NCBI GenBank assembly: GCA_018658105.1
Contig: JABHVW010000001.1
Coordinates: 1 to 64,000 of the forward strand
Direction: 5' to 3'
Length of the DNA stretch: 64,000 bases
From: Candidatus Peregrinibacteria bacterium
GTDB taxonomy: Bacteria; Patescibacteriota; Gracilibacteria; UBA1369; 2-02-FULL-48-14
This document shows, piece after piece, positions 55,949 to 60,692 of the stretch (the first letter of the stretch is position 1; each line of letters opens with the position of its first letter). Position numbers and translations under genes: made by a program. A model generated the notes under the pieces. The model had not been told where the DNA came from. It worked only from the letters and a program-made list of their open reading frames with translations, and did not search any database.

Positions 55949-56200
55949 ATGAAAGTGGTAAAAGTTACAACTAGTGGTCAGATTTCTATTCCAAAGGTTA
56001 TCCGTATGAAGGTAAATGCAGATTGCTTCACCTGCGAGCTAACTCCTGAAGGAATTTTGTTTAGACCTGTTGATAGCCCAATTTTTAAAGCACAGAAAGA
56101 CAAGAAATATGACATGAAGGATCTATTGAATTTCAAGGTTAAGAGTAAGAATAAGGAGCAGATTGCTCATAAAATTGACTCTATTATTTATACAATTTAA
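55949..56200 (+). CDS. AbrB/VapB-type antitoxin
   Basis: 83 residues. The N-terminal VVKVTTSGQISIPKVIRMKV is the SpoVT/AbrB DNA-binding fold, and the C-terminal helix with KSKNKEQIAHKIDSIIYTI would wrap the toxin. Directly abuts the PIN gene (stop TAA then ATG, no gap). Likely represses its own promoter together with the toxin. Confidence 0.85.
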   Translation: MKVVKVTTSGQISIPKVIRMKVNADCFTCELTPEGILFRPVDSPIFKAQKDKKYDMKDLLNFKVKSKNKEQIAHKIDSIIYTI

Positions 56201-56578
56201 ATGCACTTATTAGATGCCAATGTGATTATTGCCATTTTTAGAGAATGGGAGAATGACCATAAAGAAGCTGCTAACTTTGCAAGCTCACTTACTGAATTTG
56301 CCATTTCTGACTATGTGCTTGGAGAGATTTTGACTGTTATGAAAATTAAAGATGGCTTACAAGAAGCTAAGGCTGCGTTAGACTATTTAATTAATAACAA
56401 AAAAGTTCATTTAGCCCGTTTGACTCAAGATGAACTCGCACGCACCATTGCTTTTTTTCATGACAGTAAAACTGATATCTCATTCGTCGACGCGAGTTTG
56501 ATAGTTATGGCAAAAGGCCGAGATATGAAATTGGCAACCTTAGATAAAAATCTTGTTAAGGCTGGAGCGGAGTATTAG
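56201..56578 (+). CDS. PIN-domain toxin (VapC-like)
   Basis: 125 residues with the four PIN acidic residues: Asp5 (LLDANV), Glu42 (LGEIL), Asp97 (FVDASL) and Asp115 (TLDKNL). An RNase probably acting on tRNA or rRNA, held by the upstream antitoxin. It ends 6 bp before the convergent protease gene. Confidence 0.88.
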   Translation: MHLLDANVIIAIFREWENDHKEAANFASSLTEFAISDYVLGEILTVMKIKDGLQEAKAALDYLINNKKVHLARLTQDELARTIAFFHDSKTDISFVDASLIVMAKGRDMKLATLDKNLVKAGAEY

Positions 56579-59425: not shown

Positions 59426-60193
59426 ATGAAAAAGACATTATCTCTAAGTATTATTCTTAGCATGCTTTTGGTGCCTACAATTGCCTTTGCCTCATTTTGC
59501 GAAGATGGCACTGTTGAAGAACGCATAAGCTGCCTTTCAGGTGGCACAAGATCTGCAATTAATTTATTGAGAAGTGAAATTAGCAGTTTGAGTGATCGTA
59601 TTAGTATTTTGGAAGGGGGTGAAATAATCGAACCAGATGAGAATTTATTATTTGAATTTTCTGAGTATTCTCCGGAGTCTATTGATCTATCTAGCATGGA
59701 TTATGGTGCGAGATTAGCCGACTTTAGAATTACAGCTCCATCTAATTCTTCGGCAAAAATTCACCAAGTAGTTCTAGAAGTTGCTTCTGACCCAGGTGAT
59801 GTGGGTATGGAGAGTTTTGGAAGATGTGATGGTGCTTATTTTAATTATGTAGTAGATGTTTCACTCCCCTATAGTGACGGATATCTTAGCTTATATGAAA
59901 TACCAAATCTTACAAACGAAGAAGCCTCATGTTCTTATGACGAAAGCGGGAGAATTACATACTTAGTTCTTGATTTCGATGATCTATTTTTAGCTAAAGG
60001 TGAGTCTATCCGCTTCCCGGTTACTGTTGATTCATTTTCTGAATTACCAGAGCCAGGAGCAACATTGCAAATTGGTCATACTAATTCTTCTGTTTCTGTT
60101 CAAACCTTATGGTCTGATAAAACAGGAAATGTTTATGGTCATGATAATATTGATGGGCTGCCGTTATGGGGTGCATTACATGAAGCTTTGTAG
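59426..60193 (+). CDS. Secreted protein of unknown function
   Basis: 255 residues. Cleavable signal peptide (residues 1-20, VPTIAFA then SFCEDG). A short coiled coil (residues ~40-58, LLRSEISSLSDRISILEG) precedes a beta-rich domain (ADFRITAPSNSSAKIHQVVLEVASD; RFPVTVDSFSELPEPGATLQIG). It resembles secreted CPR proteins with an immunoglobulin-like domain by general look only. Start is ATG 59426, as the signal peptide begins there. Its stop TAG lies inside the 31-bp repeat. Confidence 0.7.
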   Translation: MKKTLSLSIILSMLLVPTIAFASFCEDGTVEERISCLSGGTRSAINLLRSEISSLSDRISILEGGEIIEPDENLLFEFSEYSPESIDLSSMDYGARLADFRITAPSNSSAKIHQVVLEVASDPGDVGMESFGRCDGAYFNYVVDVSLPYSDGYLSLYEIPNLTNEEASCSYDESGRITYLVLDFDDLFLAKGESIRFPVTVDSFSELPEPGATLQIGHTNSSVSVQTLWSDKTGNVYGHDNIDGLPLWGALHEAL

Positions 60194-60212
60194 ACGAAAT
60201 GGCTTGTTTTTG
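60182..60212 (+). repeat. 31-bp direct repeat, copy 2
   Basis: Identical to 57896-57926. It spans the stop codon of the secreted-protein gene and is followed by TGG-TATAAT (60211-60219), an extended -10 pointing at the tRNA-like region. Confidence 0.9.
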
Positions 60213-60227
60213 GTATAATTAGGTTGT

Positions 60228-60253
60228 TCTCGACTCTAATTGCGCATTGCTGC
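60228..60253 (-). repeat. Degenerate partial copy of the tRNA-like gene
   Basis: TCTCGACTCTAAT (60228-60240), TGCG (60241-60244) and ATTGCTGC (60246-60253) match 60335-60347, 60350-60353 and 60359-60366 in order, with two small deletions. It corresponds to the 5' half of the tRNA-like RNA without its acceptor. Confidence 0.7.
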
Positions 60254-60257
60254 AAAC

Positions 60258-60281
60258 AAAAGAGCCCGTATGGGCTCTTTT
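60258..60281. terminator. Bidirectional terminator between secreted-protein gene and tRNA-like gene
   Basis: Perfect 10-bp stem AAAAGAGCCC - GTAT - GGGCTCTTTT, usable on both strands. Confidence 0.85.
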
Positions 60282-60297
60282 GAGTTCCTGATCAAGG

Positions 60298-60370
60298 TGG
60301 TGGAGGCAAGGGGAATCGAACCCCTATCATCAGATCTCGACTCTAATGATGCGGACCAATTGCTGCCCCC
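60298..60370 (-). ncRNA. tRNA-like RNA with encoded CCA and aberrant D and anticodon arms
   Basis: A 73-nt RNA. Acceptor GGGGGCA/TGCCTCC (one G-U), T-arm AGGGG-TTCGATT-CCCCT and 3' ACCA are normal. There is no D stem (GCAATTGGTCCGC only) and no U8. The central arm is a 9-bp stem ATCATTAGA/TCTGATGAT with 7-nt loop GTCGAGA; read as an anticodon loop this would be CGA (Ser UCG), but the long variable arm of tRNA-Ser is absent. The shape recalls a tmRNA tRNA-like domain without the mRNA part. TGT-TACAGT (60388-60380, minus) just upstream suggests it is transcribed. It may be a functional odd tRNA or a decaying one. Confidence 0.55.
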
Positions 60371-60379
60371 ACTGATTGA

Positions 60380-60388
60380 ACTGTAACA
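60380..60388 (-). promoter_or_regulatory. Extended -10 of the tRNA-like gene
   Basis: Minus strand TGT-TACAGT ends 9 nt before the acceptor 5' end, so transcription would start 2-3 nt upstream of it. Confidence 0.5.
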
Positions 60389-60577: not shown

Positions 60578-60619
60578 AAAAGAAGTTTGCCCACCACTTT
60601 GTGGTGATCAAACTTCTTT
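60578..60619 (-). terminator. tRNA-Gly terminator
   Basis: AAAGAAGTTTG (60579-60589) pairs with CAAACTTCTTT (60609-60619), with an inner CCAC-TTT-GTGG. On the minus strand it starts right after the tRNA CCA and ends in TTTTGTTG. Confidence 0.88.
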
Positions 60620-60692
60620 GGAGCAAGTAAGGGGAATCGAACCCCTCTCTCCGCCTTGGCAAGGCGGCATAATACCACTATACGATACCTGC
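60619..60692 (-). tRNA. tRNA-Gly (GCC)
   Basis: 74 nt with encoded CCA. Acceptor GCAGGTA/TACTTGC, D-arm TCGTATAGTGGTATTATG, anticodon loop TTGCCAA, T-arm AGGGGTTCGATTCCCCT. It closely resembles standard bacterial tRNA-Gly-GCC. A promoter and terminator flank it as a single-gene unit. Confidence 0.97.

Follow-up and report, generated by a model that had tools for sequence, protein, structure and literature searches.

A compact alanine-type tRNA-like RNA and its predicted antisense RNA gene, a candidate RNA-controls-RNA switch in Patescibacteria

The window, that is, the whole stretch of 64,000 nucleotides analysed here, carries a compact tRNA-like RNA (RNA 1) on its minus strand, with G1 at 60370 and the CCA end at 60298. 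RNA 1 is intergenic, flanked on one side by a hypothetical plus-strand gene that ends at 60193 and on the other by a tRNA-Gly (60619-60692). The 13 bases of its loop and 5' arm (ATTAGAGTCGAGA) are repeated at 60228-60240, oriented so that a plus-strand transcript would be complementary to RNA 1. The features of the two convergent genes are listed below.

60298-60370, minus strand: compact alanine-type tRNA-like RNA (RNA 1), 73 nt to the CCA, based on sequence, the Rfam tRNA model (29.6 bits), the family model R1 (56.6 bits) and covariation
60364-60370/60302-60308, minus strand: RNA 1 acceptor, GGGGGCA/TGCCTCC, seven pairs including G3:U70
60351-60363, minus strand: RNA 1 D-region
60326-60350, minus strand: RNA 1 central 9-bp hairpin
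60335-60341, minus strand: 7-nt loop GUCGAGA of RNA 1, of the U-turn type (U-N-R), predicted antisense landing site
60309-60325, minus strand: RNA 1 T-arm, AGGGG-TTCGATT-CCCCT
60298-60301, minus strand: RNA 1 encoded ACCA
about 60226-60284, plus strand: predicted antisense small RNA gene (RNA 2), with a single-stranded 5' seed, a second pairing block and a terminator
60191-60219, plus strand: RNA 2 promoter, TAGACG-N17-TATAAT with TG before the -10 (extended -10), 10 of 12 matches
60228-60240, plus strand: RNA 2 seed TCTCGACTCTAAT, 13-nt perfect complement of the RNA 1 loop and 5' arm (60335-60347)
60246-60253, plus strand: RNA 2 second pairing block ATTGCTGC, complement of the RNA 1 acceptor/D junction (60359-60366)
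60257-60282, no strand assigned: 11-bp inverted repeat CAAAAGAGCCC/GGGCTCTTTTG between the convergent genes, with an A-tract/T-tract on both sides

Read on the minus strand from 60370 to 60298, RNA 1 is GGGGGCA-GCAATTGGTCCGC-ATCATTAGA[GTCGAGA]TCTGATGAT-AGGGG(TTCGATT)CCCCT-TGCCTCC-ACCA. Positions 8-9 and the variable loop are absent and the D arm is a stub. The initial annotation had proposed a real RNA with an intact acceptor, a TTCGATT T-loop, an encoded ACCA, no U8 and a 9-bp central stem closed by the loop GTCGAGA, and all of these are found. Its range, 60298-60388, is too long, because RNA 1 begins with G1 at 60370 and the stretch up to 60388 is leader. The D arm described as a stub is one in this copy, but in the family it is reduced, not absent, relatives having a 3-bp stem. 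As for the extended -10 reported beside the RNA, the clearest nearby promoter (60191-60219) does contain one but drives the opposite strand, toward RNA 2.

The Rfam tRNA model (RF00005) gave RNA 1 29.6 bits, at the level of its gathering score of 29, whereas the ordinary tRNAs of this genome (n=35) scored 50-75 bits, and ARAGORN did not call RNA 1 as a tRNA. RNA 1 shares the acceptor, T-arm and CCA of canonical tRNAs but does not have their full cloverleaf, in which U8 and a variable loop accompany the D stem and a 5-bp anticodon stem. The tmRNA model (RF00023) aligned both ends of RNA 1 with 21.8-30.3 bits, under its cut-off of 47, and the likeness to a tmRNA tRNA-domain without its message that had been pointed out earlier was borne out: there is no tag reading frame and no room for a message. 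RNA 1 does not stand in for a missing tmRNA, as the genome has a full-length tmRNA and also a full tRNA set; the tmRNA model matched all 39 genomes searched, 35 of them over the cut-off. Because some antisense RNAs contain short frames, we also considered a tmRNA split into two pieces, the small RNA being the message; this was rejected, as neither a tag nor a resume codon recurred consistently and it is the complementarity that is conserved. The pair G3:U70, a determinant common to tmRNA and tRNA-Ala (for tmRNA, PMC3985003), occurs in RNA 1 together with A73 as the discriminator, as in an alanine acceptor. These two elements and the absence of a long variable arm rule out the tRNA-Ser(CGA) suggested by the loop; ordinary long tRNA-Ser genes occur in the genome. 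Judging from its identity elements, RNA 1 is probably alanylated.

A search of the genomes of relatives revealed similar elements of 66-71 nt up to position 73, eleven of which were used to build the family covariance model R1. Family members score 45-86 bits with R1, the tRNA-Ala of this genome 46 and its other tRNAs less than 39. Of 89 genomes from the order (where named records put the group in Candidatus Peribacteria/Peregrinibacteria), 46 had R1 matches at E <= 3e-8, with 1-7 copies each, these E-values being rough and the genomes mostly metagenome-assembled. The remaining genomes had no match and the pattern is patchy within families. Four copies lie in the genome studied here (60298-60370 and, on contig G000:C1, at 141783, 206567 and 210181), and the family is also present in other classes of Patescibacteria. 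In the stretches compared, the neighbourhood of RNA 1 had no proteins in common with the related genome G004. Many pattern matches in other phyla turned out to be tmRNA 3' ends or ordinary tRNA-Ala, and an element labelled Planctomycetota (L183) is not claimed as spread beyond Patescibacteria because its contig is short and belongs to a 1-Mb MAG. In an Acidimicrobium MAG, two compact alanine-type tRNA-like genes are arranged head-to-tail (L178:576-716), and no antisense was seen there.

In an alignment of 76 distinct elements, 92.9% of the pair cells were standard, 21 of the 24 pairs showed double changes and the covariation score was 0.750 versus 0.181 after shuffling and no more than 0.115 when partners were slid, all figures that lean towards the model because the alignment was fitted to R1. 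The D stem of the family has three pairs (95.5% of cells paired) and is weak in the 60298-60370 copy. By script, G3:U70 was present in 73 and A73 in 74 of 78 elements, and the covariance-model alignment placed a G:U at pair 3 in 74 of 76; the D-loop GG, the CCA and the T-arm are likewise conserved. Most loops follow C/A-U-Y-R-N-C-A, with U at position 33 in 73/77, central triplets that are mainly UGU, CGU, UGA or CGA, and C at position 37 in 61/77. A C37 is unusual in a decoding tRNA. The distance of RNA 1 to its own -10 is not fixed across the family. Leader and trailer pair past the CCA (median -8.9 vs -4.2 kcal/mol), which may regulate end processing. Two members (L109:905-974 and L112:1501-1572) have a GCCG.. 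acceptor with C3:G70 and U73, which we read as glycine-like, and an antisense of 14-18 nt; the amino acid of the effector may therefore vary and need not be alanine.

That this RNA family is real seems to us almost certain. The low tRNA and tmRNA scores of RNA 1 would be expected of a functionless, decaying duplicate of a tRNA or tmRNA, an explanation to which we give hardly any credence in view of the strong covariation and the conserved identity elements and cassette anatomy. The initial annotation had asked for compensatory changes in close relatives, and such changes were indeed found: the family is kept, its helices covary, and conservation in relatives counts decisively against decay.

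At the locus, the duplex of RNA 1 and RNA 2 has an energy of -37.6 kcal/mol, and folding them together is about 12 kcal/mol more favourable than folding each alone. The RNA 2 seed is unpaired in the fold of RNA 2 itself. The inverted repeat at 60257-60282, which a strict terminator scan did not list, is likely a bidirectional terminator common to both genes. A perfect complement of this kind would also serve if RNA 2 regulated other mRNAs and RNA 1 were its sponge. This arrangement is very improbable, as a sponge has no need for the conserved G3:U70, A73, CCA, T-arm and D-loop GG, and the 13-nt seed matched exactly nowhere else in the genome.

The complementarity extends over the family. Within 250 nt of the element, an exact complement of at least 9 nt (range 9-18 nt) was found for 67/78 elements and one of at least 11 nt for 54/78, as opposed to 7.6% and 0.75%, respectively, when each element was compared with the flanks of another (5621 pairings). 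The cognate flank ranked first by duplex energy in 51/77, and between cassettes of the same genome the cognate duplexes had a median of -34.3 kcal/mol versus -18.2 for the non-cognate ones. In 43/64 the first paired base lay 5-7 nt past a -10 hexamer, which was a perfect TATAAT in 26/64 when about 3 were expected from shuffles. In most cases the complement begins where transcription is predicted to start. Eighteen further elements that came out of the order scan and had played no part in forming the idea served as a holdout; a complement of at least 9 nt was found in 12/18 (control 8.8%) and of at least 11 nt in 9/18 (control 0.3%), mostly 4-9 nt past a -10-like hexamer.

The antisense gene is convergent in most cassettes, and divergent or tandem in others. 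In other classes, tandem antisense genes on the same strand are preceded by TTGACA-N17-TATAAT-like promoters, and since the complement there is in inverted orientation behind a promoter of its own, a mere direct repeat is ruled out. In related cassettes (L058/L059 and L063/L064) the loop arm and the antisense change together, and the longer antisense of L048, L049, L052 and L060 also bears TGGTGGAG.., complementary by eye to the CCA end. For the cassette at 210181, the fourth in this genome, the automatic search missed the partner; its upstream flank contains ACCAACTGaCTTGTC, with one difference from what its loop arm ACCAACTGGCTTGTC calls for, following a TAAAAT on the opposite strand. A clear exact complement was absent in 11/78 elements, among them an ordinary tRNA-Ala (L376). 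A complete cassette with a tandem antisense, a TTGACG/TATAAT promoter and a 16-nt complement adjoins a TnpB-like gene on a contig classed as viral (L305:400-640).

Based on these sequence comparisons, the antisense pairing is very probably functional. The cognate antisense gene, the defining feature of the cassette, is what the initial annotation missed; the RNA it described is kept in relatives, and the tRNA-Ser it considered did not hold up. RNA 1 could instead be a compact but ordinary decoding tRNA-Ala with an unusual anticodon and the nearby complement a by-product, and ARAGORN does find compact tRNA-Ala(UGC) of 71-73 nt on viral contigs. Yet the usual loop triplets of the family, with their C37, are not alanine anticodons, and the complement is family-wide, covarying and absent in the listed viral tRNA-Ala(UGC), so that we regard this explanation as very improbable.

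We propose that the locus encodes a tRNA-like RNA that would carry alanine, together with a dedicated antisense RNA that would silence it, probably as an RNA/RNA module of the toxin-antitoxin type; this is the best explanation we have, and we assign it a probability of about 0.5. We take RNA 1 as the likely effector, regulated by RNA 2, because RNA 1 keeps the features of tRNA identity, charging and elongation-factor binding whereas RNA 2 consists mainly of complementarity, promoter and terminator. Both RNAs would be expressed. Through its G3:U70, acceptor and T-arm, RNA 1 would be a substrate for alanyl-tRNA synthetase, the CCA enzyme, RNase P and EF-Tu. The unstructured 5' end of RNA 2, starting at or near +1, would first contact RNA 1 at its U-turn loop and then, displacing the 3' arm, invade the 5' arm and the acceptor/D junction, with loss of the tRNA fold. 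Unpaired, alanylated RNA 1 would enter translation and poison it by miscoding or as an A-site dead end. If RNA 1 is alanylated while its loop is non-alanine or does not decode, harm to translation is the simplest effect to infer; nevertheless, the C37 of 61/77 loops and the missing U8 make the entry of RNA 1 into translation uncertain.

A toxin-antitoxin-type pair would sit in the chromosome and sometimes on mobile elements. This reading fits the patchiness, the 1-7 diverged copies per genome, the orthogonal pairs and the TnpB-adjacent cassette on the contig classed as viral, and as in type VIII-like systems one of the two RNA genes is complementary to the other, a correspondence in complementarity only. 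We hold the toxin-antitoxin-type role tentatively, at slightly less than even confidence. The same anatomy and statistics would be seen if the antisense-controlled RNA were a non-toxic alanine donor or translation modulator, released under certain conditions, with a switch of its own for each paralogue, and the intergenic chromosomal sites, here amid ordinary genes, suit such a job. We consider it unlikely, though the most serious of the alternatives, given that no linked enzyme gene was recognised beside the copies examined and that a patchy 0-7 copies per genome is odd for housekeeping. Elsewhere in the window (55949-56578), a small AbrB-like/PIN-domain-like gene pair resembles by eye a VapBC-type toxin-antitoxin operon.

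The two-RNA cassette seems to be a novel type of switch in which one RNA controls another. In the open-access published papers searched, no described system was found in which a tRNA-like RNA has an antisense gene of its own. The cassette family is widespread, with many versions, in a large and poorly known uncultured bacterial branch with tiny genomes, where standard tRNA finders miss it and Rfam scores fall at or below thresholds. It predicts a charged RNA that has no need to decode and that falls silent when the antisense strand invades its anticodon-like loop. If true, this would be a new RNA-alone route to switching translation and a source of natural orthogonal RNA switches, and it would explain the 'odd tRNA' calls in these genomes. 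A new class of RNA/RNA toxin-antitoxin in Patescibacteria, in which an alanyl tRNA mimic poisons the ribosome and its antisense unfolds the mimic through the anticodon-like loop, is plausible, at somewhat less than even odds.

Contigs classed as viral and containing many tRNA genes have compact tRNA-Ala(UGC) genes of 71-73 nt (L258:1976-2046, L259:1583-1653, L262:10903-10975, L294:38-108 and L301:3628-3698) in which the normal D-arm linker and an antisense partner are absent. On another viral-classed contig, a compact alanine-type tRNA-like gene with a CTA loop (L275:308-379), called tRNA-Pyl by ARAGORN, is possibly an amber-suppressor tRNA, and L268 and L293 have TTA-like loops.

Among known RNAs, the tRNA-like domain of tmRNA (RF00023) shares with RNA 1 the G3:U70, A73, CCA, T-arm GGGUUCGAUUCCC and reduced D region, as well as a helix in place of the anticodon arm. 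However, RNA 1 has neither message nor pseudoknots, measures 73 nt, is closed by a 7-8-nt loop, has a D stem and scores under the tmRNA cut-off. With tRNA-Ala, including the compact viral tRNA-Ala(UGC) of matching total length, it has in common the alanine identity pair, D-loop GG, T-arm and CCA, and differs in lacking an alanine anticodon, in its C37 and in its cognate antisense gene, absent from the listed viral forms. U-turn (YUNR) loops on sense RNAs are where antisense RNAs land for fast pairing, as reviewed in PMC6562991. Such a loop and a gene pair with complementary products are also found in hok/Sok, bsrG/SR4 and other pairs of this sort, whose sense RNA is an mRNA for a small toxin peptide whereas here it is non-coding and tRNA-like. 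CreTA is likewise a small RNA/RNA pair, with an RNA toxin that is translation-related, acting on the tRNA supply, and an RNA antitoxin (PMC8501985). CreA, however, is a crRNA-like Cascade guide that represses creT transcription, its gene lying between degenerate CRISPR repeats, and CreT is a mini-ORF, whereas in the cassette described here, where no CRISPR repeat was noticed at the locus, the antisense would pair to the body of an RNA that is itself tRNA-like.
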